From Flavihumibacter petaseus NBRC 106054 (GTDB lineage: Bacteria; Bacteroidota; Bacteroidia; Chitinophagales; Chitinophagaceae), in assembly GCF_000974785.1 (NCBI RefSeq), contig NZ_BBWV01000001.1, positions 496,001 to 560,000 on the forward strand: 64,000 bases of DNA. Reading direction: 5' to 3'. Below, one piece after another: positions 11,939 through 64,000 of this stretch (positions within the stretch are counted from its first letter, which is position 1; every line of letters starts with the position of its first letter). Both the position numbers and the translations under genes were made by a program. The notes below the pieces were generated by a model that was not told the origin of the DNA, ran no database searches, and saw nothing but the letters and a program-made list of their open reading frames with translations.

Positions 11939-14900
11939 GTGTAATCTTTTTACCGTTAATTTTTTCATGCAGGTACTGGAAGATGATGTAGAGCACGGGG
12001 ATCACAAATACGCCCAGCACTACACCGGTCAGCATCCCGCCCAGTGCACCGGTTCCGATGGACCGGTTACCCAGGGCTGATCCCCCGGTTGCCCAGGTCA
12101 GTGGCATCAGTCCCACGATAAAGGCAAGTGAGGTCATCAGGATCGGTCGCAGGCGCAGGGTCGCTGCCTCCAGCGCTGCAGCCGGAATGGACTTACCCGC
12201 CCGTCTTCGCTGCACCGCATATTCAATGATCAGGATCGCATTCTTGGCCAGCAGGCCGATCAGCATGATCAATCCTACCTGTACATAAATATTGTTTTCA
12301 ATGCCGGTCAGCTTGATAAAGGCGAACACCCCGAAGATGCCGGTTGGTATGGAAAGGATCACTGCGAATGGCAGGATATAACTTTCATATTGTGCTGCGA
12401 GCAGGAAGTACACGAACACCAGGCTTAGCAGGAAAATCAGGCTGGTCTGACTGCCGGCGCCGATTTCTTCACGCGTCATCCCGCTCCATTCATAAGCATA
12501 TCCTCTCGGAAGGTATTTCTCTGCTACTTCTTCAATGGCCTTGATCGCATCACCGGAACTATAGCCCGGCTTAGGCACCCCGTTGATGGTCACTGCATTG
12601 AAAAGGTTGTTGCGGGTCACCGTTTCGGGTCCGTACACGCGCTTCAGGTTCACGAGCCCGTTCACCGGTACCATCTCACCGATATTGTTCTTCACATACA
12701 TATGGTTGAGCGAACTCTCTTCAGAACGGAAAGGAACATCCGCCTGCACCATCACGCGATAATATTTACCGAAGCGGTTGAAGTCGGACACCATGCTGCT
12801 GCCGTAAAATACCTGCAAAGTCTGCAGCAGGTCATTCACTGATACCCCCAATTGTTTTGCCCTTGCATCATTCACTTCGATTTCATATTGCGGGTTGCCA
12901 TTGTTGAAGGTGGTAAAGGCATAGGCGATTTCTTTGCGCTGCATCAGTTCCCCGATAAACCCATAGGCGGTTTGTCCCAGTTTATCAAGGGAACCACCGG
13001 TGCGGTCCTGGATCAGGAATTCAAATCCGCTGGTATTACCAAAGCCCTGCACCGTGGGGAATACGAAGAGGAAAATATTTGCTTCCTTGATCACACTGAG
13101 CTTCTGGTTGATCACGCCCATCACGCCATCGATATTCTTTACAGCGCCACGATCCTTCGGGTTCTTCATGCGGATGAATCCCACTGCATAAGCAGAGCTG
13201 TTCGCATTGGCCACGATGTTCAGCCCCGTTACGGCACCCATTCTTTCAATGGCTTCCATCGGCTTCAGGATGCTGTCGATCTTGTCCATCACTTTCTGCG
13301 TACGGTCCAGTGATGCACCGGGAGCCAGGTTCACGGAGTACACGATGAAGCCCTGGTCTTCCGTAGGAATAAATCCTGTGGGGGTAGAACGCATCATGGA
13401 AACGGTCACCACGGTAACCAGTGCCAGAGCAGAAAGCGCCACCCACTTCTGCCTGAACAGGAATTGCAGTCCCCGTTTGTAGCGGTTGGTCGTTGCCGTG
13501 AAGGCAGCGTTGAAACCTGCGAAGAAGCGCCTGGAGAATCCGTTGAAGGCAATGGTAGTTCCTGCCGGTCCGTGGGCACCTTCTTTTCCATGATCATTCT
13601 TCAGGAAGAGGGCACAAAGCGCGGGACTCAAAGTCAACGCGTTCAGGGCAGAGATCAGGATCGCAATGGCCAGTGTAAAGGCAAACTGTTTATAGAATAC
13701 CCCTGCCGGTCCCTGCATGAAGCCAACGGGAATGAATACCGCCGTCATCACGAGGGTGATCGATACAATTGCTCCGGAGATCTCCTGCATGCTCTGCAAG
13801 GTCGCCTCCTTCGCCGGTTGATTGGTTCGTTCCATTTTCGCATGCACTGCTTCCACCACCACGATCGCATCATCCACCACGATACCGATCGCCAATACGA
13901 GGGCAAAGAGGGTGAGCAGGTTGATCGTAAAGCCGAATAGCTGCATGAAGAAGAAGGTACCGATGATGGCCACCGGAACCGCGATTGCCGGGATGAGTGT
14001 GGAACGGAAATCCTGCAGGAAGATGAACACCACAATGAATACGAGGATAAAGGCTTCGATCAGTGTGTGCTGTACCTGGCTGATGGAATCATCCAGGAAT
14101 TCTTTGGCATTGTACATGTTGAAATATTCAACGCCTTTGGGGAAACGCAGTGATTCTTTCTTCAGCACCTTATCCACTGACGTGAGGATATCATTGGCGT
14201 TGGATCCTGCTGTCTGAAAGATGGCGATACCGATGCCGGGATACCCTTCAATATAGGTATCGGCACTATAGCTCAGCGCACCGAATTCCACACGCGCCAC
14301 ATCTTTCAGGTGCAGCAGGGATCCATCGGGCAATGCTTTCAGGATAAGGTCTTCGTATTGTTCGTTCCTGCTGAGTTTGCCCTTATACTTGAGGATATAT
14401 TCAAAGGATTCGCGGCTGCCCTGTCCGAAACGGCCGGGGGCTGCCTCGATGTTCTGATCCTTGATCGCATTCAGCACTTCCTGTACGGAAAGCTTGTTGG
14501 CAGCAAGGCGGTCGGGCATCAGCCAGATGCGCATGGAATAATCCTTCGCCCCGAATACCATGGCCTGTCCCACACCGGATACCCGTTGAATTTCGGGGAT
14601 GATATTGATCTTGGCATAGTTCTGCAGGAAGGTTTCATCATAGGTGCTGTCTTTACTGAAGATCAGGGGCACCATGATCATGCTGTTCTGCTGTTTCTGC
14701 GTAGAGATGCCACTCTGCACAACTTCAGCAGGAAGCTGGTTCACGGCCTTGGATACCCGGTTCTGCACATTCACCGAAGCGAGGTCAGGATCGGTACCGA
14801 GTTTGAAATAAACGTTCAGCGCCAATGTACCATCGTTACTGGAAGTGGAGGTCATGTAGGTCATGTTCTCCACACCATTGATGGCTTCTTCCAGCGGGGT

Positions 14901-15086
14901 GGCCACGGCGCGCGCTACTACTTCAGCATTGGCACCGGGATAAGTAGCGGTTACCTGGACGGTCGGTGGCGCAATGTCCGGGAACAAGGTCACCGGCAAA
15001 GTATACAGACTGATCAGTCCCAGTAAGGTAAGCAGTACCGAGACCACCGTGCTCAGCACGGGTCTTTCGATAAATATCTTGAACAT
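11913..15086 (-). CDS. RND multidrug efflux pump inner membrane transporter (AcrB/HAE1 family)
   Basis: A 1057-residue protein of full family length with twelve membrane segments and two large periplasmic loops. The start MFKIFIERPVLSTVVSVLL is typical of HAE1 pumps, and the proton relay aspartates appear in TM4 as GIVVDDAIVVVE. The porter loops include the GRFGQGSRESFEY and FPTVQGFGNTSGFEF blocks. It exchanges protons for amphiphilic drugs or lipids and docks with the adaptor encoded 8 bp upstream and the channel downstream. All three genes read leftward from the same controlled promoter. Confidence 0.95.
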   Translation of the reverse strand: MFKIFIERPVLSTVVSVLLTLLGLISLYTLPVTLFPDIAPPTVQVTATYPGANAEVVARAVATPLEEAINGVENMTYMTSTSSNDGTLALNVYFKLGTDPDLASVNVQNRVSKAVNQLPAEVVQSGISTQKQQNSMIMVPLIFSKDSTYDETFLQNYAKINIIPEIQRVSGVGQAMVFGAKDYSMRIWLMPDRLAANKLSVQEVLNAIKDQNIEAAPGRFGQGSRESFEYILKYKGKLSRNEQYEDLILKALPDGSLLHLKDVARVEFGALSYSADTYIEGYPGIGIAIFQTAGSNANDILTSVDKVLKKESLRFPKGVEYFNMYNAKEFLDDSISQVQHTLIEAFILVFIVVFIFLQDFRSTLIPAIAVPVAIIGTFFFMQLFGFTINLLTLFALVLAIGIVVDDAIVVVEAVHAKMERTNQPAKEATLQSMQEISGAIVSITLVMTAVFIPVGFMQGPAGVFYKQFAFTLAIAILISALNALTLSPALCALFLKNDHGKEGAHGPAGTTIAFNGFSRRFFAGFNAAFTATTNRYKRGLQFLFRQKWVALSALALVTVVTVSMMRSTPTGFIPTEDQGFIVYSVNLAPGASLDRTQKVMDKIDSILKPMEAIERMGAVTGLNIVANANSSAYAVGFIRMKNPKDRGAVKNIDGVMGVINQKLSVIKEANIFLFVFPTVQGFGNTSGFEFLIQDRTGGSLDKLGQTAYGFIGELMQRKEIAYAFTTFNNGNPQYEIEVNDARAKQLGVSVNDLLQTLQVFYGSSMVSDFNRFGKYYRVMVQADVPFRSEESSLNHMYVKNNIGEMVPVNGLVNLKRVYGPETVTRNNLFNAVTINGVPKPGYSSGDAIKAIEEVAEKYLPRGYAYEWSGMTREEIGAGSQTSLIFLLSLVFVYFLLAAQYESYILPFAVILSIPTGIFGVFAFIKLTGIENNIYVQVGLIMLIGLLAKNAILIIEYAVQRRRAGKSIPAAALEAATLRLRPILMTSLAFIVGLMPLTWATGGSALGNRSIGTGALGGMLTGVVLGVFVIPVLYIIFQYLHEKINGKKITHETETALA

Positions 15087-15094
15087 GTTCTGGT

Positions 15095-16282
15095 TTATTT
15101 TTTAGAAAGCGGGTTGCTCTGCAGGATGCTGTCAAGGGAGATGATCTCCGGGGTAATCCGGGCACCTTCCTGCAGCCTGCCCATGCCGGCGAAAACGATC
15201 TTGTCGCCCGCATGCACACCGCCATTTACGAGATAATAATTTCCTGATTTTGCGTTGATCGAGATGGCTTTACCAGTAACGGTATTGCTGTCACTCACCT
15301 GGAATACGAATACCTTGTCCTGCAGTTCGTAGGTTGCCTCCTGCGGTACCACAACGGCATCATCATTTGCCCGGGGCAGTCTTACGGCACCAGTACTGCC
15401 GGAACGGAGTGCGCCGCCTTCATTGGGGAATACTGCACGGAGAGAGATAGTTCCCATCCGGTTGTTGAAGACCCCATTCACGGTTTCGATCCTACCCTTC
15501 TGCGGGTACACTGAGTTATCGGCGAGCACAAGTTCTACCGGTGGCACCTGTTTCAGTTTCGCGTCGAGGGTATTGCCCGGGAAGCGCTGGGAGAATTGCA
15601 GCCATTCTTTTTCACTGAGTGAGAAATAGGCATACACTTCTTTTACAGAGGACAGGAGCGTCAACGGTTGCGCGTTGCTGCTGTTCACCAGGCTGCCCGT
15701 TTTGTAGGGGATCCTTCCGATATAACCATCTGCCGGCGCTTTGATGAGCGTGTAACCGAGATTGATGCTGGCTTGCTCCTTCTGAGCGGCAGCCTGGCTG
15801 ACTGCAGCAGCTGCTGCATCACGGTTGGCGCGTGCGGTTTTCAGTTGCACATCACTCACCACGTTGGAAGAAACGAGCGGCTCGATCTTGCCGAGGTTGA
15901 TATCGGCGGATTCAAGGTTGGCTTCTGCCTGTTTCAGGCTGGCGTGGGCATTGTTGAGCGCTTCGGAATACCGGCGGCTGTCGATGGCGAATAAGGGTGT
16001 TCCTTTTTTCACCCAGGCGCCCTCGTCTACATAGATCTTGCTGAGGTAACCATCCACCTGGGGACGGATCTCGATGTCTTCGCTGCCTTCAAGAGAGGCG
16101 GTATATTCCTGGAAGGTGTTTACATCCTGGGCCTGGAGGGCGATGACGGGTAATGCTGGTGGCGGCGGCGCCCCTGCGCCTTCCGTGTTGGCCTTTGCAT
16201 TACAGGCATACAGGTACACCAGTGCGATACTGGCGAAAAAGATGCCGTTGAAATTGCTTGCTGATTTGATGAACTGTAACAT
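15095..16282 (-). CDS. RND periplasmic adaptor (membrane fusion protein) lipoprotein
   Basis: A 395-residue protein with an N-terminal lipoprotein signal (Cys27 in LYAC), a lipoyl-like barrel (VDGYLSKIYVDEGAWVKKG), a helical hairpin of about residues 105-175 rich in Ala/Gln, then the second half of the lipoyl domain and a beta-barrel (GYIGRIPYKTGSLV). This is the HlyD/AcrA architecture. It bridges pump and outer membrane channel. It is the first gene of the efflux operon; a TetR-type palindrome lies 29 bp upstream of its ATG. Confidence 0.93.
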   Translation of the reverse strand: MLQFIKSASNFNGIFFASIALVYLYACNAKANTEGAGAPPPPALPVIALQAQDVNTFQEYTASLEGSEDIEIRPQVDGYLSKIYVDEGAWVKKGTPLFAIDSRRYSEALNNAHASLKQAEANLESADINLGKIEPLVSSNVVSDVQLKTARANRDAAAAAVSQAAAQKEQASINLGYTLIKAPADGYIGRIPYKTGSLVNSSNAQPLTLLSSVKEVYAYFSLSEKEWLQFSQRFPGNTLDAKLKQVPPVELVLADNSVYPQKGRIETVNGVFNNRMGTISLRAVFPNEGGALRSGSTGAVRLPRANDDAVVVPQEATYELQDKVFVFQVSDSNTVTGKAISINAKSGNYYLVNGGVHAGDKIVFAGMGRLQEGARITPEIISLDSILQSNPLSKK

Positions 16283-16310
16283 GGATAACTGTTTATAACG
16301 TAACTATTAT

Positions 16311-16325
16311 ACCTAACACTGTTAG
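16311..16325. promoter_or_regulatory. TetR operator, copy 1 (efflux operon)
   Basis: ACCTAACACTGTTAG here is identical to a second site in front of the tetR gene. With the flanking base it forms CCTAACA-C-TGTTAGG (16312-16326), a perfect 7-bp inverted repeat. It lies about 29 bp upstream of the adaptor ATG, where bound repressor would block transcription of the whole efflux operon. Confidence 0.75.
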
Positions 16326-16351
16326 GTTTTCGGGCAAAAAAAATTTAATGG

Positions 16352-16957
16352 CTAGCGCTCGAGGTTTTTAATGAAGCCGGTCATGGCGTCGTCCAACACC
16401 ATTTTGTTGACTTCGTCCGATATCTCTGTACCGGTGGCGAGGGTTTTGATGGATACAAGACCGTGTATGATCGACCAGAAAGTATGATACTTCATGCAAG
16501 CATTTACATCTGTCCGGTGGTGATTGTTCAAAATTTTTTCAATTGGTTCGGAAACAAGTCTCCGGAAAGTGCCCCGTTCAGGGATAACCTTTTCCGTTTC
16601 ACAGGCCTGCATATTCAGGCCGAACATCAATTGGTAATACTCTTTATTGTTGAAAGCGAACTGCCAGTAGGCATCTGCTATCGCTTTCAGCTGGGCACCC
16701 GGATCATCGTGTTTTTTCTTGGCCTGGGCCAGTTTTTTGGTCAGGATACCGAAGCCCTGTTTGCCGAATTCGAGCAGGATGGCTTCCTTGTTTTCAAAGT
16801 GGTCATAGATCACGGGAACGCTGTACTCAATGGCATCGGCGATCTTACGGATGGAGAGTGCTTGCCAGCCTTCTTCACGGACCATTTCCCAGGCCGTCTC
16901 CAGGATGAGGTTTCGCACCTCTTCCCGCTGTCGGAGTTTTCGTTCAGCTATTCCCAT
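16352..16957 (-). CDS. TetR/AcrR family repressor of the RND operon
   Basis: A 201-residue protein. Residues about 15-60 hold the TetR helix-turn-helix (LILETAWEMVREEGWQALSIRKIADAI followed by VPVIYDHFENKEAIL, key residues S-I-R-K-I-A and Y-D-H-F-x-N-K-E). The C-terminal ligand domain contains FNNKEYYQLMFGLNM, as in TetR proteins with a WHG-type domain. It lies just upstream of the efflux operon on the same strand. The same palindrome precedes both, so it very likely represses the pump and itself until a pump substrate binds. Confidence 0.9.
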   Translation of the reverse strand: MGIAERKLRQREEVRNLILETAWEMVREEGWQALSIRKIADAIEYSVPVIYDHFENKEAILLEFGKQGFGILTKKLAQAKKKHDDPGAQLKAIADAYWQFAFNNKEYYQLMFGLNMQACETEKVIPERGTFRRLVSEPIEKILNNHHRTDVNACMKYHTFWSIIHGLVSIKTLATGTEISDEVNKMVLDDAMTGFIKNLER

Positions 16958-17074: not shown

Positions 17075-18319
17075 ATGTTACCACGTGTTGTGATTACCGG
17101 TCTCGGTGTGCTAAGTCCCAATGGATCAACGGTTGATACCTTCTGGGACAATATCGTGAATGGCCGCAGTGCCATGGCCACCATTACCCGGTTTGACCCG
17201 TCCCTGTTCCGTACGCAGTTCGGCAGTGAGCTGAAAAATTATGACCCCACTCCTTTTCTCGATAGAAACACCATCAAGCGTACTGACCTCTTTACGCAGT
17301 ATGCGCTGATCGCCGCCGACCAGGCCATTGCTGATTCAGGATTTGATTTCAAGGCCATGAATCCTTTTGATGTGGGCGTGATCTGGGGATCCGGCCAGGG
17401 CGGCATGGATACTTTTGAAGAGCAGGTGAAGGAATATGTGCAGGGCGACGGCCATCCGCGGTTCAGTCCTTTCCTCATTCCGAAATTCATTCCCAATATG
17501 TCTTCAGGAATGATTTCCATACGGCACGGTTATATGGGCATCAACTATACGACGATCTCGGCCTGTGCCACTTCCAATACGGCGATCATGGATGCTTTCA
17601 ATTATATCCGGCTGGGCAAGGCGAAGATTATCGTAACCGGTGGATCGGAAGCGCCCATTACGCCTGCTTCGTTTGGTGGTTTCAGTGCCATGAAGGCGAT
17701 GAGTCACCGCAACGATGACCCGCAGCATGCTTCGCGGCCTTTTGATATTCACCGCGATGGTTTTGTAATGGCAGAAGGTGCCGGCGCCCTGGTGCTGGAA
17801 GAGTATGAGCATGCCGTTAAACGCGGCGCGCGCATATATGGTGAGGTTGCCGGTGCGTCGATGACTGCCGATGCCTATCATATGACGGCTACGCATCCGG
17901 AAGGTGCAGGTGCTGTACAGGCCATGCGGCTTGCGCTGGATGAGGCGGGCGTAAATGTTCATGACGTCGACTACCTTAACCCTCATGCGACCAGCACGCC
18001 GGTAGGTGATCTTTCCGAAACGAGGGCCATTGCCACGCTGCTGGGCGGTACGGCGAATAACCTGTTGCTGAGTGCCACCAAATCAATTACGGGGCATTTA
18101 CTGGGTGCTGCAGGTGCTGTGGAAGCGATCATTGCCCTGAAGGCGATGGCGCACAATGTTGTGCCACCTACTATCAACACCACTGAACTGGATCCGGAGA
18201 TCCCTTCCAGCCTGCATATCGTGACCGGTGCCGCCCGTGAGGCAAAGATCGATGTGGCGATGAGCAATACTTTCGGCTTCGGCGGCCACAATGCGACGGT
18301 GGTGTTTAAGAAAGTGTAG
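17075..18319 (+). CDS. fabF: beta-ketoacyl-ACP synthase II
   Basis: A 414-residue KAS II of usual family length starting at ATG 17075 with LPRVVITGLGVLSPNG. The frame is open for 612 bp further left, but that part is antisense to tetR and not coding. The catalytic triad is Cys164 in SACATSN, His304 in NPHATSTPVGD and His341 in GHLLGAAGAVE. It condenses malonyl-ACP with acyl-ACP in fatty acid elongation in the cytoplasm. It is not next to other fab genes here. A stand-alone copy next to an efflux operon might be a second, specialised KAS; the sequence does not decide this. Confidence 0.93.
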   Translation: MLPRVVITGLGVLSPNGSTVDTFWDNIVNGRSAMATITRFDPSLFRTQFGSELKNYDPTPFLDRNTIKRTDLFTQYALIAADQAIADSGFDFKAMNPFDVGVIWGSGQGGMDTFEEQVKEYVQGDGHPRFSPFLIPKFIPNMSSGMISIRHGYMGINYTTISACATSNTAIMDAFNYIRLGKAKIIVTGGSEAPITPASFGGFSAMKAMSHRNDDPQHASRPFDIHRDGFVMAEGAGALVLEEYEHAVKRGARIYGEVAGASMTADAYHMTATHPEGAGAVQAMRLALDEAGVNVHDVDYLNPHATSTPVGDLSETRAIATLLGGTANNLLLSATKSITGHLLGAAGAVEAIIALKAMAHNVVPPTINTTELDPEIPSSLHIVTGAAREAKIDVAMSNTFGFGGHNATVVFKKV

Positions 18320-54108: not shown

Positions 54109-54660
54109 ATGATGTTTATCCAGCTGACCGGTCTTTCCGGATCGGGAAAATCAACAATTGCCAACGGTGCCAGGTTGCTGCTGCAGCAACGGGGCCACGC
54201 TGTGGAGGTAGTTGACGGCGATATATACCGGAATGCCCTATGGCCGGACCTTGGCTTTTCCCGGAAAGACAGGAACGAAAATATCCGCAGGCTTGGTTTT
54301 GTGGCCAACCGGTTTGCCGCGAATGGCGTTATCTCCATCATGGCAGCCATCAATCCATACGAAGACGTCCGCAAAGAACTGAGGAATTACGGGGATCACG
54401 TTGTTACGGTATGGATCAACTGCGACCTGGCAACCCTGCTGCGCCGGGATACCAAACAACTGTATCATAAGGCGCTACTCCCCGAATCACACCCCGACAG
54501 GATCAACAACCTTACCGGCGTGAACGACCCCTATGATGTTCCTGTTGATCCGGATCTTATCATCAACACACACGAATGCACGGAAGCACTCAGCATTGAA
54601 CTGCTGTATCATTTCATCGTGAACAGGATGGTTGCATCCCAGCAGGAAAAGGTCCGCTGA
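54109..54660 (+). CDS. cysC: adenylylsulfate kinase
   Basis: A 183-residue single-domain APS kinase. Walker A is GLSGSGKST at residues 8-16, followed by VDGDIYR, the family block DLGFSRKDRNENIRR, and SIMAAINPYEDVRKE. It phosphorylates APS to PAPS, the activated sulfate donor. No ATP sulfurylase or sulfotransferase is visible in the window. Its 3' end overlaps the convergent PPTase gene by 52 bp. Confidence 0.9.
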   Translation: MMFIQLTGLSGSGKSTIANGARLLLQQRGHAVEVVDGDIYRNALWPDLGFSRKDRNENIRRLGFVANRFAANGVISIMAAINPYEDVRKELRNYGDHVVTVWINCDLATLLRRDTKQLYHKALLPESHPDRINNLTGVNDPYDVPVDPDLIINTHECTEALSIELLYHFIVNRMVASQQEKVR

Positions 54661-55319
54661 TTCCCAGCTACAGCAAGCGCTGCAGCATACCCCGGCGCTA
54701 TCCCGAGATCGGTTCCCCACCAGCCATCGGGCCAGGCTGAAACATCACAATCTTCCGGAGGAGATGAAAATCCTTCACCCCGCGCTTTAAGCAATGCCTC
54801 TTTCCTGGTCCACAACTGGTAAAAAACACCAGGTTGCCATGCAGGCGGTGCTGCATTCAGTATCGCCTTTTCCTTTGCCGTAAAAAACCTGCCGGCGATC
54901 CGTTGATACTGCAGATCATTCCTGAAACATTCAAGGTCTGCACCCACAAGTGTTTGTGCGGTTACTGCCAGCAACACATAAGCTCCCGAATGCGAGAGGC
55001 TGAATTGCAGGTCCGCATCAGCCAGTTTCGGTTTTCCATAAGCGTTATATACAAATTGAAGTGCTGCAGGCGCCCTGTAGAGGTAGTGGCCCAGCGTTGT
55101 GCGCAACATGGCACGGGCAACCACAAATTGCCGGCGGTCCTTTTCGAAACGATACGCTGCTGCCCGTTGCTGCTCATCCCCTGACAGGAGGATTACAGGA
55201 TCTATTTCCGGCAATGTCGGGGCGACCTTCAGCAACCATAGATGGACGGTGTTGCGATCCAGATCCGGATCGGGCAAAAATGGTTGCCAGTGCAACCGGA
55301 ATGAACTATCCACCAACAT
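54609..55319 (-). CDS. 4'-phosphopantetheinyl transferase, Sfp type
   Basis: A 236-residue protein with the two Sfp/AcpT motifs: VGADLECF in place of the usual GVDIE, and FYQLWTRKEALLKARGEG, plus RFFTAKEKA between them. It transfers phosphopantetheine from CoA to the active Ser of carrier proteins. Its start overlaps the end of the P450 gene by 14 bp, so it belongs to the leftward part of the biosynthetic cluster and probably activates the ACP of the adjacent PKS. Confidence 0.9.
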   Translation of the reverse strand: MLVDSSFRLHWQPFLPDPDLDRNTVHLWLLKVAPTLPEIDPVILLSGDEQQRAAAYRFEKDRRQFVVARAMLRTTLGHYLYRAPAALQFVYNAYGKPKLADADLQFSLSHSGAYVLLAVTAQTLVGADLECFRNDLQYQRIAGRFFTAKEKAILNAAPPAWQPGVFYQLWTRKEALLKARGEGFSSPPEDCDVSAWPDGWWGTDLGIAPGYAAALAVAGNQRTFSCWDATILFTMK

Positions 55320-56673
55320 GGGAAGGTTGTCTTTTTTCCAGGATCATTTTCATGCCATAACGGGGCCGCAGGTTGATCAGCGGCTGCAGCGCAACGGGAT
55401 GGCCAGGCATCATCCGGAGGCGCCATTGCGAAGCGATCGTCGCCAGCACGAGCACCCCCTGCATCCACGCAAAGGGCTCACCGATACAGGATCTTGGCCC
55501 CCTGCTGAATGGAAAATATTCATACTTGGCCCGCTGTCCCTGCGCGTGTTGTCCCCACGCTACCGGATCAAATGTTTCAGGGTTGGCGCGGAAACGGGCA
55601 TCATGGTGAATCAGGTAGGGACTGATCAGTACGATCGTGCCTGCCGGAAAAGAATAGCCGCCAATGGTCACCCATTGGGCAGCTTGCCTGGGTACCAGGT
55701 ATGAAGGGGGATACAGGCGCAATGACTCACCAAATACCATCCGGGTATATTTCAGGTTTGGAAGATCTGCGGCTACAGGTAGCCTGCCCTGCAATACGGT
55801 ATCCAGTTCCCGGTGAAGTGCTGCTTCCGCGCCGGCATGTTGTGACAACAGGTACCAGGTCCAAGTCAAAGCCGTTGAAGTGGTATCAAATGCCGTCAGG
55901 AAAAGTGTGATCGCTTCGTCCCGCACCTGTTGCCTGCTCATGCCCTCGTCACCTGTTTCGCGGCTGGCACGCAACAGCAGGGAAACCAGGTCACCGTTAT
56001 CGTTGTTTCCCTTTTCGCGTTCCGCAATCATCTTCCGCAGGATATGATCAAGCCTGGCTTTTGCGCTGAGGAATCTTCGGGTACCCGGCAACGGCAATTT
56101 AAGCAGGTGTTCAGCAAACGGCAGCGGGATGCGCCCGAACAATCCCGTTGCCGTTTCCAGGGCACGGTTGATCTCCGGAACCGACTGGTGAACGTCCACA
56201 CCAAACAAAGCGCTGCCTGCTATGGCAATGCTCATTTCCGTCATTGCTTCCTTCATTTCCACCAACTGCCCGTCACGCCAGTCAGCCAACGTATGCTGAA
56301 TGTTTCGAACGATACCCGGTGCGTAGCCATCCAGCATATTGCGGTGAAAAGCAGGCTGGATCAGGCGGGATTGTTTCTTATGGACCTCTCCTTCGCTTGT
56401 AAGCAATCCCTCACCCAGTAAAGACCTGACCATTTGCAACGGGCGCCCTTTTATGAAAGCGGACTGCTGCGTGGTAAGCACTTCCCTGATATAGTCGGGA
56501 TGATTCAATAACACGATCCGTAGCGGTCCGATCGTGAAGTGGGCAATATCGCCGTATTGTTCTGCGAGATTTTTGAGAAACCCGATACTGTCTTTCCGGA
56601 AGGCAAACAGGTGGGCAAGCGGATATCTCGGCTTTGGACCTGGCGGTAGTCTTGATGTAAGGACAGTGCTCAT
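55306..56673 (-). CDS. cytochrome P450
   Basis: A 455-residue soluble P450. Heme-binding loop FSRGPRSCIGEP with Cys396; I-helix FLTAFDTTSTALTW; the K-helix ExxR motif in GESLRLYPPSYLVPRQ. The long form with PxxxG at the N-terminus (PGPKPRYPLAHLFAF) is similar to fatty-acid or terpene oxidising families. It lies 9 bp after the KAS III didomain gene and overlaps the PPTase gene, so all three are co-transcribed. Likely role: oxidative tailoring of the cluster product (inference). Confidence 0.9.
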   Translation of the reverse strand: MSTVLTSRLPPGPKPRYPLAHLFAFRKDSIGFLKNLAEQYGDIAHFTIGPLRIVLLNHPDYIREVLTTQQSAFIKGRPLQMVRSLLGEGLLTSEGEVHKKQSRLIQPAFHRNMLDGYAPGIVRNIQHTLADWRDGQLVEMKEAMTEMSIAIAGSALFGVDVHQSVPEINRALETATGLFGRIPLPFAEHLLKLPLPGTRRFLSAKARLDHILRKMIAEREKGNNDNGDLVSLLLRASRETGDEGMSRQQVRDEAITLFLTAFDTTSTALTWTWYLLSQHAGAEAALHRELDTVLQGRLPVAADLPNLKYTRMVFGESLRLYPPSYLVPRQAAQWVTIGGYSFPAGTIVLISPYLIHHDARFRANPETFDPVAWGQHAQGQRAKYEYFPFSRGPRSCIGEPFAWMQGVLVLATIASQWRLRMMPGHPVALQPLINLRPRYGMKMILEKRQPSHVGG

Positions 56674-56682
56674 CTCCGATAG

Positions 56683-58698
56683 TCAAAAATGATAAATAGC
56701 GCAGCCGATTTGTATACCTGAGCCAACGGTTATGATCAGCCCGATATCGCCGGGTTTTACCTGTTGGTTATCCAGTGCATATTTTATGGCATAAGGAACA
56801 GACGAAGTAAACAGGTCAGGGCCATCACCGGCCACATCAATCATTTTTTCCACCGGCACCGCCAGCGCCTTACTGACATTTTCAATAAAAGCAGTGGATA
56901 GCTGGGGTGGAAACAGCCGGGTGATCTGATTCAATTCCAGTCCAGATGATTCCAGCAGTTCTTTTACCGCTATGGTAATCCCGTTGATATAGATCGATTC
57001 AAGTGCTTCCGATTTTTCGGTACACAGTAATGGCCTGGCTTCTTCTGACCTGTAGCAGCTGGTATAGGCCTCCGTTGTACCTGCAGGATAATAAAAATGA
57101 AAATCCGAAAACCCCTGCCTGCCTGCAGGATCGGCTTCAAGAATAATGGCGGATGCTGTTTCGCGGATTTCCAAAGCGTCACTTTCAGCCATCCTGGCAT
57201 TGTTGTCTGTTTCCGCGGCTACGATCATGGCAGTTGCAGTATTACCTGCAGTAATCATTTGCTGCGCCACCAAACATGCATTAAGCCATCCCACTGCCCC
57301 GTTAAAAATATCAAAGGCAAGGGTCTGCCGGTGATCAGCAGCCGGAGCAGTTGCATTCATATCGAGCTCACCGGCGAGCAGGCTCGCATAGGCCGGCTCG
57401 AGCAGGTATTCATCGCGGTAGACGCCTGCATACAACAGCAGCCCGATGGCATTTGCATCATACCGGGAACGCGCCAGGCAATCGTTCGCAGCTGTTACCA
57501 GCATCTCCATTGAATGTCCTGACAAAGCCGGTTGGATTGGCAGTATTCCGATGCTCTCGCAGCGAATAAAGGCAGACGTTGTAAATTTTGCTGCAGGAAT
57601 CGCTGACGCCTGGCCGATAGTTGCCGGAGATTTGATAGCGGGCAAAGCTCTAAGACGGTCAGGCAGATCATCCAGCACATAGAGTCCGGTGCCGGTAGTC
57701 AGGCCAGAAGCGGTTACACTGAACACGATCCTGTCACCGGTATTGATCCGCCCCTGCCTTACCTGATCGCCTAACGCTATAAGGTGCGCAGTCGAAGCAG
57801 TGTTGCCTCTGTCTTCCAGGTTATTGATCGTATTACCATCGTGACACACCGGGCTGTTCAGTTTCCGGTTGATTTCATTGCGTGCACTGTTCATCGTCAT
57901 CGTTGAGGTCTGGTGCATCACCAGGTGCTGGAAACTCTCCGGCGCCCAGGCTGCGCGTTGCAAGGCATCGAGTGCATGTTTCGCACCGGAACGTATGCCC
58001 ACATCCGTCAGCCGCAGTGCGTCTGTATACATGATCATGCCACTGGTGGTTGCTGCCTTGGCGACACAATACGGACTGTATTTGCCGAAGGTCTGCAATT
58101 GCAGATCGACAAACCCTGTTCCGGGTACCGAACCCTGTTCCAGTACCACAGCCGCGCCCGCATCGCCCAGTGTCAGGCAGGCCAGCCGGGCATCCATGAA
58201 ACCACTTAGCTCCCGTTGTGCTGTTTGCGTGAGATGGGTGATATATTCACCGCTGACCACCATTCCGCGGCGCACGGCACCTGAGCGGATCATGGCATCT
58301 ACGATGTAGATGCCGGTGAACATTCCCGCGCATGCATTGGTGATGTCAAATACCAGTGCGTTGGCGAACCCGAATTCTGCCCGCAGTTTAGCTGCAGTTG
58401 ATGGTTCAAAAGAGATGCTGCCAGGCGCATCATAGCGGGATATATTGCAGCAGATCAACACATCAATTCCGGCTGCGGAATGTCGTGAATAAGATAAACA
58501 GTCGGTAACAGCCTTTCGGGCAAGGTCAATGGAAAATTCACTGACTCCGGCGACGCGTCTTGTCCTGATGCCGGTGGCTTTTTCGAGCGGAAAACGGACT
58601 TCGTTACGGCAGCCCTTCAACACTTCACCAGTGGTGCGGGCTTCAGGTGGAAGGTAAATCCCAAGGCTTTCCATGATGGTATTCGGCCGGAGATCCAT
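56683..58698 (-). CDS. KAS III didomain protein, second half catalytically degenerate
   Basis: A 671-residue protein formed by two FabH-like (KAS III) modules. The first (about residues 8-345) has the complete triad: Cys123 in ITNACAGMF, His262 in MHQTS and Asn299 in RGNTAST. The second (about residues 370-671) aligns as FDIFNGAVGW, where the Cys is replaced by Ala468; the His position reads FPPQLS and the Asn position GPDLFTSS, so none of the three catalytic residues remain. KAS III proteins start chains or transfer acyl groups; a dead partner half is known from the separate PqsB protein of Pseudomonas quinolone synthesis. It heads a leftward operon with the P450 and PPTase, divergent from FAAL. 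Confidence 0.85.
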   Translation of the reverse strand: MDLRPNTIMESLGIYLPPEARTTGEVLKGCRNEVRFPLEKATGIRTRRVAGVSEFSIDLARKAVTDCLSYSRHSAAGIDVLICCNISRYDAPGSISFEPSTAAKLRAEFGFANALVFDITNACAGMFTGIYIVDAMIRSGAVRRGMVVSGEYITHLTQTAQRELSGFMDARLACLTLGDAGAAVVLEQGSVPGTGFVDLQLQTFGKYSPYCVAKAATTSGMIMYTDALRLTDVGIRSGAKHALDALQRAAWAPESFQHLVMHQTSTMTMNSARNEINRKLNSPVCHDGNTINNLEDRGNTASTAHLIALGDQVRQGRINTGDRIVFSVTASGLTTGTGLYVLDDLPDRLRALPAIKSPATIGQASAIPAAKFTTSAFIRCESIGILPIQPALSGHSMEMLVTAANDCLARSRYDANAIGLLLYAGVYRDEYLLEPAYASLLAGELDMNATAPAADHRQTLAFDIFNGAVGWLNACLVAQQMITAGNTATAMIVAAETDNNARMAESDALEIRETASAIILEADPAGRQGFSDFHFYYPAGTTEAYTSCYRSEEARPLLCTEKSEALESIYINGITIAVKELLESSGLELNQITRLFPPQLSTAFIENVSKALAVPVEKMIDVAGDGPDLFTSSVPYAIKYALDNQQVKPGDIGLIITVGSGIQIGCAIYHF

Positions 58699-58766
58699 TT
58701 GATTAAATGTAGTTGTATTTACCCAAATTAATTTTTATTTTACAATAGTACAGATGCCGCCGTTAT

Positions 58767-60485
58767 ATGACTCATCTGCCCAACTCACTCGTTGATATTT
58801 TACGATGGCGCGCAATTCACCAACCGCAACGGTTGGCCTACCGGTACCTGATAGATGGTGAATTTGATGAAGCGGTTCTGACCTATGAGGAATTGGATCG
58901 GCGCACGCGCGCTGCCGGAACAATGCTGCAGGCTGCCACCCAACCTGGAGACAGGGTATTGTTGTTATTACCGCCTGGTCCGGATTTTATTGTTGCGTTC
59001 TTCAGCTGCCTGTATGCCGGTGTGATCGCGGTCCCTTCCTGGCCTCCGCATCCGGCGCGGCTGGAAAACCAGCTGGTACCCATTCAGCGTCTTGTTGAAA
59101 ATGCTTCGCCTGCTGCTGTCTGGATGAATCTGACCCTTGCAGAAAAAATTCACACGATTCCGGAAGCGGGTCGCCTGTTTCAGCCATTGAAGGTATTGTT
59201 GATAGAAGCTGCGGCAGCTCACTCCCCAGAACACTGGCGGAAACCGGCCATCAATGGGAGTGATATTGCCTTCCTCCAATATACATCAGGTTCAACGACA
59301 CTTCCCAGGGGTGTTATGGTAACACACCATAACCTGTTGCACAACCTGGGCATGATGGAAAACAAGCTTGGTCAATCCACGAACAGCCACGCAGTCATCT
59401 GGTTACCCCCCTATCACGACATGGGGCTGGTGGGCGGTATCCTGCAACCATTGTTCACCGGATATCCGGCCACCATCCTGCCACATCTCCTGTTTCTGCA
59501 ACGGCCGGTCCGCTGGCTGCAGGCGATCTCCCGATTCGGTGCAACCACCAGCGGCGGGCCGAATTTCGCGTATGACCTGTGCCTCCGGAAAATAAAACCG
59601 GAACAGCGGGATCAGTTGCAACTCAATACCTGGACAACCGCGTTCAATGGTGCAGAACAGGTGTCCGCACAAACGGTCCTGGAATTCACCCGCTTTTTTG
59701 CCCCTTGTGGCTTTCACAGCAATGCCTGGGTTCCGTGTTATGGACTGGCAGAAGCAACCCTGATGGTCAGCGGGCGGCAATACCCGGAGCCTTTGATCAG
59801 GCACCTGGATCGTGCAGCACTGGAACAGCAGCGGGTCAGTGCAGTTACCGGCGATGATGAAAAAGGATTGCAACTTGTTGCCTGCGGCACAGTAGCTGAT
59901 GATCAGCAGGTCATTGTGGTCGACCCGCACACATTGCTGAAAGTTGATCAGGGGAATGTGGGCGAGATCTGGATCAAGGGGCCCAGTGTGGCAAAAGGCT
60001 ACTGGAACAATCCGGCAGCCACTGAACAGACTTTCAGCGCATCACGAACCGGGCAAACAGGAGAAAATTACCTGCGCACCGGTGATATGGGATTTTTAGC
60101 AGAAGGAGAACTTTTTATCACTGGCAGGTGGAAAGATGTCATCATTGCCGACGGACATAATCACTATGCGTGTGATATTGAGAAAACGGTAGAACATTCA
60201 CATCCCGCGATCAGGCTCTCGGGTTGTGCAGCGATTGGCATCAGCCGGGATAACCGGGAAAGACTGGTGATCCTGGCGGAGATCGAACAACAGACCATTC
60301 TACAAAAGGATGCTGTCACCAAAGCCATCCGTACTGCAGTTTCATTGTGCCACGAACTCCAGGTGGACGATATCCGGTTCGTCTATCCCGGTGCCATTCC
60401 AAGAACACGCAGCGGCAAGATCAAACACTACGCCTGTAAAACAAATTACCTGAACGGAAACCTAAAAGAAATCATCGCCATATGA
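58767..60485 (+). CDS. fatty acyl-AMP ligase (FAAL)
   Basis: A 572-residue adenylating enzyme. YTSGSTTLPRGVMVTH starting at Tyr172, WLPPYHDMGLVGG, TSGGPNFAYDLC, YGLAEATL and TGDMGFLAEGELFITGRWKDVII (key Asp440) define the FAAL family. The C-terminal lobe reads IADGHNHYACDIE, where the common form has GRNHY. FAALs activate a free fatty acid to acyl-AMP and load it onto an ACP of a PKS or NRPS rather than CoA. It opens the rightward operon and overlaps the monooxygenase gene by 4 bp. Confidence 0.94.
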   Translation: MTHLPNSLVDILRWRAIHQPQRLAYRYLIDGEFDEAVLTYEELDRRTRAAGTMLQAATQPGDRVLLLLPPGPDFIVAFFSCLYAGVIAVPSWPPHPARLENQLVPIQRLVENASPAAVWMNLTLAEKIHTIPEAGRLFQPLKVLLIEAAAAHSPEHWRKPAINGSDIAFLQYTSGSTTLPRGVMVTHHNLLHNLGMMENKLGQSTNSHAVIWLPPYHDMGLVGGILQPLFTGYPATILPHLLFLQRPVRWLQAISRFGATTSGGPNFAYDLCLRKIKPEQRDQLQLNTWTTAFNGAEQVSAQTVLEFTRFFAPCGFHSNAWVPCYGLAEATLMVSGRQYPEPLIRHLDRAALEQQRVSAVTGDDEKGLQLVACGTVADDQQVIVVDPHTLLKVDQGNVGEIWIKGPSVAKGYWNNPAATEQTFSASRTGQTGENYLRTGDMGFLAEGELFITGRWKDVIIADGHNHYACDIEKTVEHSHPAIRLSGCAAIGISRDNRERLVILAEIEQQTILQKDAVTKAIRTAVSLCHELQVDDIRFVYPGAIPRTRSGKIKHYACKTNYLNGNLKEIIAI

Positions 60486-61792
60486 AATTCGGCATCTTCA
60501 TCGACCTCCAGTTACCCCGTCCCTGGCAGGATGGTGATGAGGCAAGGCTTTTCCGGGAAGCGATGGAGCAGGTGGAACTGGCAGACCGGCTGGGCATTGA
60601 CTATGTCTGGGCACAGGAACATCATTTCCTCGAAGAATACTGTCACTCCAGCGCTCCCGAAGTATTTCTTGCAGCCTGCAGCCAGCGCACGTCACGCATA
60701 AGGCTTGCCCATGGCATTATCGCCATGTCGCCGCGCTTCAATCATCCCGCACGAATCGTTGAGCGGCTCGCCACACTGGATCTTCTCAGTAATGGCAGGG
60801 TAGATTGGGGAACCGGAGAATCCGGATCAAGAATGGAACTGGAAGGATTCGGTGTTGACTTTGTGGACAAACGCGCCATGTGGGAAGAAGCGTTACGTGA
60901 AGCAGTAAAGATGATGTGCATGCAACCTTATCCTGGTTACCAGGGAAAATATTTTTCGATGCCGCATCGCAATATTGTGCCCAAACCAGTACAAAAACCG
61001 CATCCTCCCTTGTGGGCTGCCTGTTCCAACCGCGATAGTGTACAGCTCGCCGCAAGTCTTGGAATGGGTGCACTCACGTTCGCCTTTGTAAACGGCGATG
61101 AAGCGAAATTTTGGGTAGATACCTATTACGATACATTATTCAGCAACTGTACACCGATTGGTCAGACCATCAACCCCAATATTGCGATGCTCACCGGCTT
61201 CTTCTGCCACGAGGACAGTGATTATGCACTAGAGGCAGGACAGGAAGGTGCGCAGTTTTTTGCTTACGGACTGGGACATTACTGGCGAGATGGTGTACAT
61301 GTACCTGGTAAAACCAACCTGTGGCATGATTTCCGGCAGCGTCCAAATACCGTAACAGAAAAACTGGAAAGGGAAAGAAAAAAAGCCGGGATGGGCGGCA
61401 TTGGTAATCCGCAGCAACTGACCGAAAATTTCAGGGCACTGGAAGCTGCGGGTGTTGATCAGCTGATCTTCCTGCAGCAATGCGGGAATTATTCACATGA
61501 AGCCATATGTACTTCGATGAAGTTGTTTGCTGAAACAGTACTTCCGGAGTTCCGGGAGCGGGAAGTTAAAAGGCAGAAAGAAAAACAGGAATGGATATCG
61601 CCCCATCTCGAAAAAATCCGTCAGGCAATTATTCCGCCGGATCCCATGATGCCGGTGCCACCCGTGGAAGCCTATCCCCTGATCTGGAATCAGCATCGTG
61701 ACGGGCAACCGCAGGCCGCACCGGATCGCAGGCCGGGCATGACGGCATTCTGGCAAATGCAGGTGGGAGGCAATCGTTCCGGAAAGATTTAA
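60482..61792 (+). CDS. luciferase-like flavin monooxygenase (LLM)
   Basis: A 436-residue protein with the bacterial luciferase-like TIM barrel: MKFGIFIDLQLPRPWQDG, EQVELADRLGIDYVWAQEHHF, RIRLAHGIIAMSPRFNHPARIVERLATLD, and DWGTGESGSRMELEGFG. Such reduced-flavin enzymes insert one oxygen atom, as hydroxylation or Baeyer-Villiger-type oxidation, and recur in polyketide and lipopeptide clusters. It is coupled to the FAAL gene (ATGA overlap) and ends 4 bp before the PKS start. Confidence 0.88.
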   Translation: MKFGIFIDLQLPRPWQDGDEARLFREAMEQVELADRLGIDYVWAQEHHFLEEYCHSSAPEVFLAACSQRTSRIRLAHGIIAMSPRFNHPARIVERLATLDLLSNGRVDWGTGESGSRMELEGFGVDFVDKRAMWEEALREAVKMMCMQPYPGYQGKYFSMPHRNIVPKPVQKPHPPLWAACSNRDSVQLAASLGMGALTFAFVNGDEAKFWVDTYYDTLFSNCTPIGQTINPNIAMLTGFFCHEDSDYALEAGQEGAQFFAYGLGHYWRDGVHVPGKTNLWHDFRQRPNTVTEKLERERKKAGMGGIGNPQQLTENFRALEAAGVDQLIFLQQCGNYSHEAICTSMKLFAETVLPEFREREVKRQKEKQEWISPHLEKIRQAIIPPDPMMPVPPVEAYPLIWNQHRDGQPQAAPDRRPGMTAFWQMQVGGNRSGKI

Positions 61793-61796
61793 TCAC

Positions 61797-64000
61797 ATGT
61801 TGAGCGAATACGATATTCAGCAATGGCTGGTCAGACAACTGGCGGCCAGTCTGCACCTCGAACCCGAATTGATTGATATTCGTGAACCCTTTGCGCATTA
61901 CGGTCTAAGTTCCGGTGAAGCCGTCAGCCTTTCGGGGGAACTGGAAGAATTGCTGGGAAGAAGATTATCTCCCACCCTGGTTTACGAATATCCCAGCATC
62001 TTTACCCTTGCACAATTCCTGGTTCAGGCAGATGATCACGCTGATATAAGCAGGGTGGGCAACCCGCTTCCGGATGAGCACCCGGAACCCAAGCACCATG
62101 AAGCAGTTGCGATCATTGGTATCAGTTGCCGTTTCCCGGGAGCAAAAGATCCTGATGCTTTCTGGGAACTCTTGCGAACAGGTACTGACGCGATCACAGC
62201 CGCACCAGAAGAAAGAAAAAACATTTCCCAATGGGGAGGATTCCTGGAAAACATTGACCAGTTCGACCCTTTTTTCTTTGGCATTTCTCCCGTGGAAGCA
62301 GCAGGCATGGACCCGCAGCAACGGCTGTTAATGGAACTCTCCTGGGAATTGCTGGATGATGCCAACCTGAACAAAGATGCCATAACCGGCACCGACACTG
62401 GTGTATTTATCGGCATCGCATTGAACGAGTACAGCCAGCTGCAATTGGGGAACACAGATATGCTGACCAGTCATTCCGGAACAGGAAATGCCTTATCCAT
62501 TGCAGCTAACCGGATCTCCTATTACTACGATCTCCATGGGCCAAGCATGGCTATTGATACCGCCTGCTCTTCTTCCCTGTCAGCCCTCCATCTGGCTTGT
62601 AAAAGTCTGCGGGATGGCGAATGCAGCATGGCTATCGCTGGCGGCGTGAATATTATGCTTTCACCGGTGCATGCCATTGCTTTCACGAAAGCAGGTGTGC
62701 TTTCCCCCGATGGAAGATGCAAAGCCTTTGATGCCCGGGCAAATGGTTATGTGCGGGGAGAAGGTGGCGGACTCGTTCTGTTGAAACCATTGGAGGCGGC
62801 ATTAAGAGACGGCGATACGATTCATGCGGTTATCCGCGGAAGCGCCATGCGGCAGGATGGCCGGACCAACGGCCTGATGGCGCCCAGCCGTGAATCACAG
62901 GAAGCGCTTCTGGTAGCAGCGTGTCAGCAAGCCGGCGTAGCGCCATCACACCTGCAATATGTCGAAACACACGGCACAGGCACCCTCCTGGGTGATGCCA
63001 TGGAAGCTGCAGCTCTAGGGGCTGTTATGGGCAGGGATCGTATTGTAGGGCCATGTATTATCGGAACTGTAAAGAGCAATATAGGTCACCTGGAAGCAGC
63101 TGCCGGCATCGCCGGACTGATCAAGGTGATCCTGTCTATGCGGCACAAAATGATCCCGGCCTCCCTGCACTACCTGTTGCCCAATCCGCATCTTGCCTTT
63201 GACACGTTGCACCTACAGGTACAGCAAATCATATCGGCCTGGCCGTTGAACGAGGGTACTGCACTGGCAGGTGTCAGCTCCTTCGGGTTTGGCGGCACAA
63301 ATGTTCATGTGATCATTTCCAAAGAATACAAAACTGAGTTGCCAGATGCTGCTGTCACTGGCAACGATACAGCAGGGGTATATTTATTACCCCTTTCATC
63401 AGGCGGGGAACAGGCACTCCGACAACTTGCTGATCAATTTCGGGTAATGCTTTCCGATAGTTCCCTGTCTGTCCGCGCGATCTGCAGCGCTGCTGCCTGG
63501 CGGCGAAGCCAGCAATTTCCCCGGATTGCCGTCATGGGGAACAACCGTGAACAAATGATCGCAGGTCTGACAGCTTTCCAGCATGGATTGCCTGATACCG
63601 GATTAACTGTTGGTGATGAGGCAGTGACCCCGAACCGCAGGCTTGCCTTTATATTTCCCGGCCAGGGAGGGCAATGGCCTGGCATGGGAAGGGAACTGTT
63701 AAGATCTTCACCAGTATTTGCCGGCAAAATCAGGGAACTGGATAGCCTGATGCAACAATACCAGGACTGGTCACTCGAAGACTATCTGCAGTGCCATATA
63801 AGTTCCCAAAATGACCAGGAGATTGACATCATTCAGCCTGCCATTTTTGCAATCCAGGTAGGTCTTGCAGCAGTATTCGGGCACTGGGGAATCACTCCGG
63901 ATGCCGTAGCAGGACACAGTATGGGCGAAGTTGCCGCTGCACAGGTTGCCGGAAAGATTAACCTTGAAGATGCTGTTCGCATTATCTGCAGGCGCAGTCA
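61797..64000 (+). CDS. type I polyketide synthase, ACP-KS-AT start, cut by the window end
   Basis: The frame is open from ATG 61797 to the last base with 734 codons visible. Domains: a loading ACP (about 1-80; YGLSSGEAVSLSGELEELLG with the phosphopantetheine Ser, typical of FAAL-partner ACPs), a ketosynthase (about 100-520) with Cys257 in DTACSSSL, His392 in ETHGTGT and His431 in NIGHLEAAAG, and an acyltransferase with GQGGQWPGMG and Ser708 in GHSMGEVAAA. The AT specificity motif lies outside. The FAAL is expected to charge the ACP with a fatty acid, which the KS then extends. Confidence 0.93.
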   Translation, partial: MLSEYDIQQWLVRQLAASLHLEPELIDIREPFAHYGLSSGEAVSLSGELEELLGRRLSPTLVYEYPSIFTLAQFLVQADDHADISRVGNPLPDEHPEPKHHEAVAIIGISCRFPGAKDPDAFWELLRTGTDAITAAPEERKNISQWGGFLENIDQFDPFFFGISPVEAAGMDPQQRLLMELSWELLDDANLNKDAITGTDTGVFIGIALNEYSQLQLGNTDMLTSHSGTGNALSIAANRISYYYDLHGPSMAIDTACSSSLSALHLACKSLRDGECSMAIAGGVNIMLSPVHAIAFTKAGVLSPDGRCKAFDARANGYVRGEGGGLVLLKPLEAALRDGDTIHAVIRGSAMRQDGRTNGLMAPSRESQEALLVAACQQAGVAPSHLQYVETHGTGTLLGDAMEAAALGAVMGRDRIVGPCIIGTVKSNIGHLEAAAGIAGLIKVILSMRHKMIPASLHYLLPNPHLAFDTLHLQVQQIISAWPLNEGTALAGVSSFGFGGTNVHVIISKEYKTELPDAAVTGNDTAGVYLLPLSSGGEQALRQLADQFRVMLSDSSLSVRAICSAAAWRRSQQFPRIAVMGNNREQMIAGLTAFQHGLPDTGLTVGDEAVTPNRRLAFIFPGQGGQWPGMGRELLRSSPVFAGKIRELDSLMQQYQDWSLEDYLQCHISSQNDQEIDIIQPAIFAIQVGLAAVFGHWGITPDAVAGHSMGEVAAAQVAGKINLEDAVRIICRRS

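Follow-up and report, generated by a model that had tools for sequence, protein, structure and literature searches.

A 64,000-nucleotide stretch of the genome of Flavihumibacter petaseus NBRC 106054 (GCF_000974785.1, NZ_BBWV01000001.1:496,001-560,000, forward strand; the whole stretch is called the window here) ends inside a single biosynthetic gene cluster, which by its observed gene content and order spans about 54109-77289. In this cluster a KAS III didomain protein is encoded divergently from a fatty acyl-AMP ligase (FAAL), a luciferase-like monooxygenase (LLM) and a polyketide synthase-nonribosomal peptide synthetase (PKS-NRPS). Alignments and trees indicate that LstA and LstB, the condensing pair of lipstatin biosynthesis, are fused in this protein, and a slight preference goes to a pathway in which the didomain would release the acyl-glycyl chain of the PKS-NRPS by C-C condensation with a second acyl chain, with tailoring by Ole enzymes, oxidases and sulfation to follow. 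The host genome (G000) measures 5.69 Mb, is 99.7% complete and carries the window at 496001-560000 of contig C22. This contig extends beyond window position 64000, and positions above 64000 continue the window numbering along it (C22 coordinate minus 496000).

The KAS III didomain and its relation to LstA and LstB

The original prediction had named the didomain only as KAS III. The family assignment stands; what it missed is the correspondence to a fused LstA-LstB pair, which alters the predicted release chemistry. In the alignment of 16 didomain proteins, both domains lie within a single open reading frame (ORF) in every case, the residues C123, H262, N299, E98 and E434 are invariant, and the position of domain 2 that could hold a Cys lacks it in all 16. 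According to the available part of PMC12141560, the catalytic triad of LstA is C128/H271/N305 and the E60A variant of LstB is inactive. The LstA homologue of Streptomyces NBC_00536 has C128/H271/N305 in the published LstA numbering, and these residues align with C123/H262/N299 of the didomain; E434 of domain 2 aligns with E57-E59 in all five LstB-like proteins compared. The same grouping was obtained from a tree of 57 rows, where domain 2 joined LstB with support of 100/99 and domain 1 joined LstA with moderate support of 85/92. The group of domain 1 and LstA was placed beside seven OleA rows, weakly (80/60), and apart from the eight FabH/KAS III rows. A 66-row tree, which had some wrong OleA ORFs among its rows, gave 94/78 for domain 2 with LstB and 94/97 for domain 1 with LstA. 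Before the 57-row tree was built, OleA rows L129, L132 and L134, FabH row L015 and KASx row L009 were dropped as wrong or long-branched, and FabH rows L022, L034 and L038 and KASx row L016 were dropped only to shorten the run. The trees were built without MxnB rows.

Two results speak against this assignment. In the first tree, of 51 rows and flawed by a wrong row, domain 2 joined LstB (94/91) and domain 1 was not joined to LstA. Moreover, the nearest NCBIfam model of the didomain is PRK09258, which is of OleA type (197.3 bits, cut-off 285). A plain OleA was nevertheless ruled out by this score below the cut-off together with the separate clade in the 57-row tree, and no match to PRK09258 above the cut-off was found in the F. 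petaseus genome. A true FabH was rejected too, despite FabH being the best single match both in the PDB and in Foldseek, because both domains group in the trees with the Lst pair. The AlphaFold2 model of the didomain (pLDDT 83.8, pTM 0.91) has Foldseek matches to KAS III enzymes including OleA, and these do not discriminate between the candidates.

The separate genes corresponding to the two domains were found on plasmids. A tblastn search with the didomain returned 175 plasmid records, all below 60% identity, 10 of them with a single place that covers 80% or more of the query; the best places span two adjacent genes, not one. Seven of these records were examined; an adjacent KAS pair was present in five, and three of the five pairs (Streptomyces NBC_00536, Streptomyces NBC_01001 and Rhodococcus qingshengii TG-1) belong to lst-type operons. 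Their gene order, that of the lipstatin operon, starts with KAS and a second gene and continues with fatty acid CoA ligase, NAD epimerase, NRPS and formyltransferase; a small hypothetical gene lies on one side or the other of the epimerase. The other two pairs, LstA/LstB-like and on Rhodococcus plasmids (L046:11923-13885 and L049:9923-11894), have no OleC, OleD or NRPS neighbours and stand next to universal-stress and CBS-domain genes in the former and universal-stress and trehalose genes in the latter. The last two of the seven records, Photobacterium and Nocardia plasmid matches tried as OleA references, were not confirmed as OleA. A review that discusses natural fusions in general cites the LstAB work (available part of PMC12141560), and the LstA-LstB fusion as such may already have been noted earlier.

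The cluster, its assembly line and the proposed release of the chain

The cluster is composed of the following features:

54109..54660, plus strand: APS kinase of CysC type, for supply of 3'-phosphoadenosine 5'-phosphosulfate (PAPS) (PF01583, 143.9 bits; TIGR00455, 151.0, cut-off 138.7)
54609..55319, minus strand: 4'-phosphopantetheinyl transferase (PPTase) (PF01648 and PF22624)
55306..56673, minus strand: cytochrome P450 (PF00067, 247.5 bits)
56683..58698, minus strand: KAS III didomain, 671 aa, fused LstA-LstB (alignments and trees)
58699..58766: intergenic spacer between the divergent operons, 68 bp
58767..60485, plus strand: FAAL (PF00501; PRK05850 FAAL, 421.8 bits, under the cut-off of 775)
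60482..61792, plus strand: LLM (PF00296, 164.4 bits)
61797..70556 (in-window part 61797..64000), plus strand: PKS-NRPS, 2919 aa (Pfam domains and motifs)
70446-71075, minus strand: DUF6629 protein (PF20334, 65.7 bits)
71091-72104, minus strand: OleD-like protein (NF042422, 388.4 bits, under the cut-off of 580)
72101-73747, minus strand: OleC-like protein (NF045786, 611.4, under the cut-off of 900; PRK09274, 689.8, over the cut-off of 478)
73744-74625, minus strand: OleB-like protein (PRK03592, 166.1, under the cut-off of 241)
74626-76062 (L002:4626-6062), minus strand: candidate diiron protein, 478 aa (conserved E/ExxH residues)
76129-77289, minus strand: sulfotransferase (PF13469, 117.1 bits)

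The six ORFs from the PPTase to the PKS-NRPS lie at the positions, on the strands and with the spacing originally predicted, Pfam confirms the family of each, and the ORF coordinates bear out two divergent operons around the spacer 58699-58766 with overlapping or tightly spaced members: the P450 and PPTase genes overlap by 14 bp and those of FAAL and LLM by 4 bp, and the gaps are 9 bp between KAS and P450 and 4 bp between LLM and PKS. The view that the set within 54609-64000 is self-contained does not hold, since OleBCD, the candidate diiron protein, the sulfotransferase and the APS kinase flank it on either side. The left edge, which had been put at 54609, is to be moved as well because the APS kinase gene (54109-54660), which overlaps the PPTase gene tail to tail, also belongs to the set. 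On the right, the sequence beyond 64000, to which the prediction had pointed as a check, contains the rest of a PKS that is not truncated: its ORF runs from 61797 to 70556 and the cluster to about 77289. The GC content of the cluster genes is 0.494-0.544, compared with 0.511 for the window. The Bacteroidota-type promoter motif TAnnTTTG has no match in or around the spacer.

The enzyme encoded by the large ORF has the domain order ACP-KS-AT-DH-KR-ACP-C-A-PCP (Pfam), where ACP and PCP are acyl and peptidyl carrier proteins; the predicted start ACP-KS-AT is thus correct and the description as a plain PKS is not, since this is a PKS-NRPS with a predicted glycine module. FAAL, the ACP-initiated PKS and the NRPS module share one strand. 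No ER was found in the PKS module, and a Pfam scan of the 2919-aa protein found no thioesterase or reductase release domain. In the alignment of related proteins, the KS Cys and AT Ser are intact in all 10 rows that cover them, the KR Tyr in 12/12, the DH His in 11/11 and the DH Asp in 12/12. The glycine of the DH motif HxxxGxxxxP is replaced in nine of 11 rows, but not in F. petaseus, and its DH is likely but not surely active. The AT motif [VI]ASH is compatible with malonyl or methylmalonyl units. The nine residues of the A-domain codes were placed by alignment to GrsA positions. The code reads DILQLG[LM][IV]W in eight of nine distinct Bacteroidota genomes, DILQLGLIW in F. petaseus itself and DLHQLGMVW in the exception, G251; this count excludes G368, and L057 and L061 have no A domain in the stretch covered. 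Glycine is the predicted substrate of the module, the code DILQLGMIWK being assigned to Gly in the available part of PMC12283262.

The didomain is assigned to the last position of the assembly line chiefly because of its fusion with NRPS modules in other bacteria. In an unclassified bacterium (record "bacterium isolate Bin_79R", L066) and in a planctomycete (Planctomycetota, L070), C-A-PCP and didomain share one ORF (1785 aa in L066, 1784 aa in L070), in which 43 (L066) and 48 (L070) residues separate the didomain from the PCP match, and in a third locus (L071) the didomain gene follows the C-A-PCP gene. In L066, FAAL and PKS genes lie upstream and a gene for an NAD-dependent reductase (Epimerase/3Beta_HSD, 31% identical to OleD) lies directly downstream. 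In L070, the gene directly behind the NRPS-didomain gene (12016-13302) encodes an MbtH domain fused to an LLM, an arrangement that ties an LLM to an NRPS line.

From these genes we infer the following substrates, order of steps and product. FAAL would load a fatty acid onto the first ACP, the KS-AT-DH-KR-ACP module would add one ketide, which would be 2,3-unsaturated if the DH works and 3-hydroxylated otherwise, and the C-A-PCP module would add glycine. The carrier-bound acyl-glycyl chain would then move onto Cys123 of the didomain and be joined to a second fatty acyl thioester by non-decarboxylative Claisen condensation. Glu434 of the Cys-less domain would be the likely base, by analogy with E60 of LstB and with Glu117 of OleA, which a title in the reference list of PMC7064751 describes as key to condensation. 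The expected product, based on LstAB and OleA chemistry in the available parts of PMC12141560 and PMC7064751, would be an alpha-branched beta-keto acid, which in the absence of processing by OleD, OleC and OleB would decarboxylate to a ketone; with either partner as electrophile, decarboxylation would give an alpha-amidoketone. OleD would reduce the beta-keto acid, OleC would close a beta-lactone and OleB, where acting, would decarboxylate the beta-lactone to an internal alkene; Ole clusters with OleB lead to olefins and those without it to beta-lactones (available part of PMC7064751). In relatives that have no OleBCD, the beta-keto acid would decarboxylate to an amidoketone. The LLM, the P450 and the candidate diiron protein would oxidise the chain, and the sulfotransferase would sulfate it with PAPS from the APS kinase. 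The statement that the product cannot be predicted was therefore too pessimistic, as the release and end-group chemistry can be constrained. Whether the fused LstA-LstB domain represents a new way of ending a thiotemplate chain, in which non-decarboxylative Claisen condensation with another fatty acyl chain brings about release and an OleDCB relay leads to a beta-lactone or alkene, appears to us evenly balanced.

Several observations count against this pathway or narrow it. The exact code DILQLGLIW has no entry in the open-licence PMC papers searched, and the A codes of the NRPSs in L066, L070 and L071 differ, so that a glycyl substrate is not general. No OleC was found in G220 or in the Pontibacter genome G247, though core and sulfotransferase are present, and OleBCD is thus not obligatory. 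Around two Lentisphaeria didomains, no NRPS is seen in the 7.3 kb (L064) and 22 kb (L068) covered, which suggests that the didomain may also work on plain acyl-CoAs.

In lipstatin biosynthesis, the NRPS attaches its amino acid as an ester to the hydroxyl of the beta-lactone lipid. On a similar course, the didomain would condense two acyl-CoAs, OleD and OleC would form the beta-lactone and the acyl-glycine made separately by the PKS-NRPS would be esterified late onto its hydroxyl. This possibility, which we consider unlikely but the most serious of the alternatives, agrees with the nearest homologues of the didomain pair, which sit in lst-type operons with an NRPS downstream, and with the two Lentisphaeria loci, where no NRPS is seen near the didomain and the genome encodes an OleC of 43-45% identity on a different contig, in L121 with OleD behind it. 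It fits less well with the lack of a formyltransferase among the cluster proteins scanned with Pfam, with the persistence of the core without OleBCD in G220 and G247 and with the fusion of the didomain behind the PCP in L066 and L070, as expected for direct action on a carrier-bound chain.

Some KAS III relatives act as acyltransferases, and the didomain might merely transfer or hydrolyse the chain, giving an ester or acid with no C-C bond; this is improbable in view of the Cys-His-Asn triad and the LstB glutamate, invariant in 16/16, and of the repeated linkage to OleC and OleD, which fits a beta-keto acid product. Least probable is an LLM of MOX type that would hydroxylate the glycyl alpha carbon and thereby release the chain as a primary amide, with the didomain in an independent pathway. 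The MbtH-LLM fusion right behind the NRPS-didomain gene in L070 points in this direction, as does the code DILQLGMIWK, common to four Gly domains with MOX in the available part of PMC12283262, yet the LLM scores 62.1 bits against the MupA/Atu3671 model of secondary-metabolism LLMs (cut-off 244.45) and is encoded by a stand-alone gene between FAAL and PKS. C-C bond-forming release by the didomain is favoured over these alternatives because of the chemistry of LstAB and OleA and because MxnB joins carrier-bound chains.

Distribution and gene content of related clusters

A scan of genome contigs yielded 15 didomain loci, and 12 Bacteroidota clusters were compared (G000, L057-L063, L065, L067, which is a contig of G220, L069 and G368). 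Named strains with the cluster core are Algoriphagus sp. AK58, Lewinella cohaerens DSM 23179, Ferruginibacter paludis CECT 8366 and Pontibacter diazotrophicus H4X. The same neighbourhood recurs in 11 Bacteroidota genomes other than F. petaseus, and the cluster is therefore more than a chance assembly. This co-inheritance agrees with the prediction of one lipid-polyketide pathway that brings its own FAAL, oxidases and activator of carrier proteins. Within samples of related genomes the didomain is rare: a full-length copy was present in one (G220) of the 243 further genomes sampled from the family, in one of 394 other genomes of the phylum sample (G368; E 1e-40) and in none of 193 other genomes from the phylum of G253 (E 1e-40). 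In the phylum of G255, a search with the L070 didomain gave a single partial match (G1021) among 283 other genomes.

FAAL-LLM-PKS is divergent from didomain-P450 in all 12 Bacteroidota clusters, F. petaseus included, with Ole genes between the two arms in L058 and L063 and the 478-aa gene between them in L058, L069 and G368. The LLMs of the other 11 clusters are 70-74% identical to that of F. petaseus. A PPTase gene is present in 11 of the 12 and was not seen in L063. All 12 have an NRPS. In ten it is a whole C-A-PCP, which for L065 sits on a different contig (L112) of its genome; in L057 and L061 only the C domain is covered, where the stretch ends. The sulfotransferase was found in 11/11 checkable Bacteroidota genomes (nine plus G000 and G368, with L061 left out), and its motifs YRSGTS and LKSP are kept in 11/11 aligned sequences, as are HDWGG and GHY in 9/9 OleB sequences, F. 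petaseus being included in both. Narrow first-pass motif patterns had matched fewer rows (OleB 5/9, sulfotransferase 5/11, DH 3/10, KR 8/12), and the alignments settled these cases. OleB, OleC and OleD occur together in nine of 11 checkable Bacteroidota clusters, that of F. petaseus among them.

Where OleC is present, it adjoins or nears the sulfotransferase, the NRPS or the didomain: in L058 and L063 the didomain gene is preceded on its own strand by OleB-OleC-OleD, and in G244 and G251 OleC stands next to the sulfotransferase on a contig other than that of the didomain. In Algoriphagus AK58 (L106/L107) the layout is that of F. petaseus, with the APS kinase at the opposite end. An APS kinase homologue adjoins the sulfotransferase in G220 (65.5% identity), G246 and G248, and the PPTase or P450 in L058 and L063. 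A search of 13 genomes found OleC in seven of nine didomain-bearing Bacteroidota genomes and in the two Lentisphaeria, and not in G252 or G255. Chance proximity was rejected on comparing the 7/9 with two of 394 other genomes of the phylum sample, one of them G368, a comparison that is biased in that clusters were picked by didomain and not by OleC.

The 478-aa protein has no Pfam match at E 0.001 and no credible relative among solved structures by sequence or profile search (best E 0.044 and 0.15), and its AlphaFold2 model is poor (pLDDT 45.3, pTM 0.32). The residues E271, E302xxH305, E353 and E386xxH389 are invariant in the seven family members aligned, and on the strength of these E/ExxH residues the protein is a candidate for an undescribed family of diiron oxygenases. 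Its gene was found in eight of 11 Bacteroidota clusters, each of these eight also having OleBCD; about 42 kb of G249 and the covered stretches of G247 did not show it, and it is absent from all other genomes in the family sample.

Other genes deserve a brief mention. In the G368 cluster, an extra ORF of 367 aa with no reference-protein match lies between NRPS and sulfotransferase (L124:12844-13947). Elsewhere in the window, a stand-alone FabF-like ketosynthase (17084-18319), contained in an over-called ORF of 618 aa, has as divergent neighbours a TetR-like regulator and, at 11913-16957, an RND-type efflux operon, both named from reading the sequence. Further ketosynthase/KAS III gene groups, possibly of pigment or aryl-polyene type, are located at C22:246198-250414 and C22:1345669-1379640.

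Significance and comparison with known systems

NRPS and PKS release normally sets the end of the product as an acid, amide, ring or aldehyde. If the proposed pathway is true, release by C-C bond formation, in which a second lipid is merged with the chain and which has a dedicated beta-lactone/olefin relay, would be an additional release mode and would come with a predictable scaffold. A hidden family of lipids, often sulfated, would result, built around an amido-ketone, amido-beta-lactone or allyl-amide/enamide core. This family would be scattered over Bacteroidota, Planctomycetota and at least one unclassified bacterium, with an amino acid that varies by lineage. Beta-lactones such as the anti-obesity drug lipstatin inhibit enzymes covalently, and new ones could come from clusters with OleCD. 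Natural fusions of a pair that was characterised as two proteins may also aid structural work. The original prediction had recognised no known pathway in this combination of genes, and a search of open-licence PMC papers likewise found no description of the cluster or of an NRPS-LstAB fusion.

The beginning of the assembly line resembles that of FAAL-initiated PKS-NRPS lipopeptides such as jamaicamide and ambruticin (available part of PMC11837247), which have the same FAAL and ACP start and a PKS followed by an NRPS. Here, in contrast, no thioesterase was found in the PKS-NRPS, the KAS III didomain is the likely release enzyme and tailoring would involve Ole enzymes and a sulfotransferase. A precedent for the joining of two carrier-protein-bound PKS/NRPS chains by a KAS III relative is given by MxnB/CorB of myxopyronin and corallopyronin biosynthesis (available part of PMC5724707). 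Those enzymes differ from the didomain in being homodimers that form an alpha-pyrone from two beta-keto chains. Ole enzymes are not known to take part in the MxnB/CorB systems. With the OleABCD olefin pathway the cluster shares OleB, OleC and OleD homologues in one operon (71091-74625), although the NCBIfam equivalog cut-offs of OleC and OleD are not reached; the condensing enzyme here is of LstAB and not of OleA type, and at least one substrate is probably carrier-bound. The closest parallel is the LstA-LstB heterodimer of lipstatin biosynthesis, with the same triad in one partner, the essential Glu in the Cys-less partner, the grouping of domains 1 and 2 with LstA and LstB in the trees and the same linkage to OleC/OleD-like genes and an NRPS. 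The two systems differ in that LstAB consists of two separate polypeptides and the didomain of one, and in that the lipstatin cluster is replaced here by FAAL-PKS-NRPS with OleB, LLM, P450 and sulfotransferase and with no formyltransferase found, the didomain being fused to the NRPS itself in two other bacteria.

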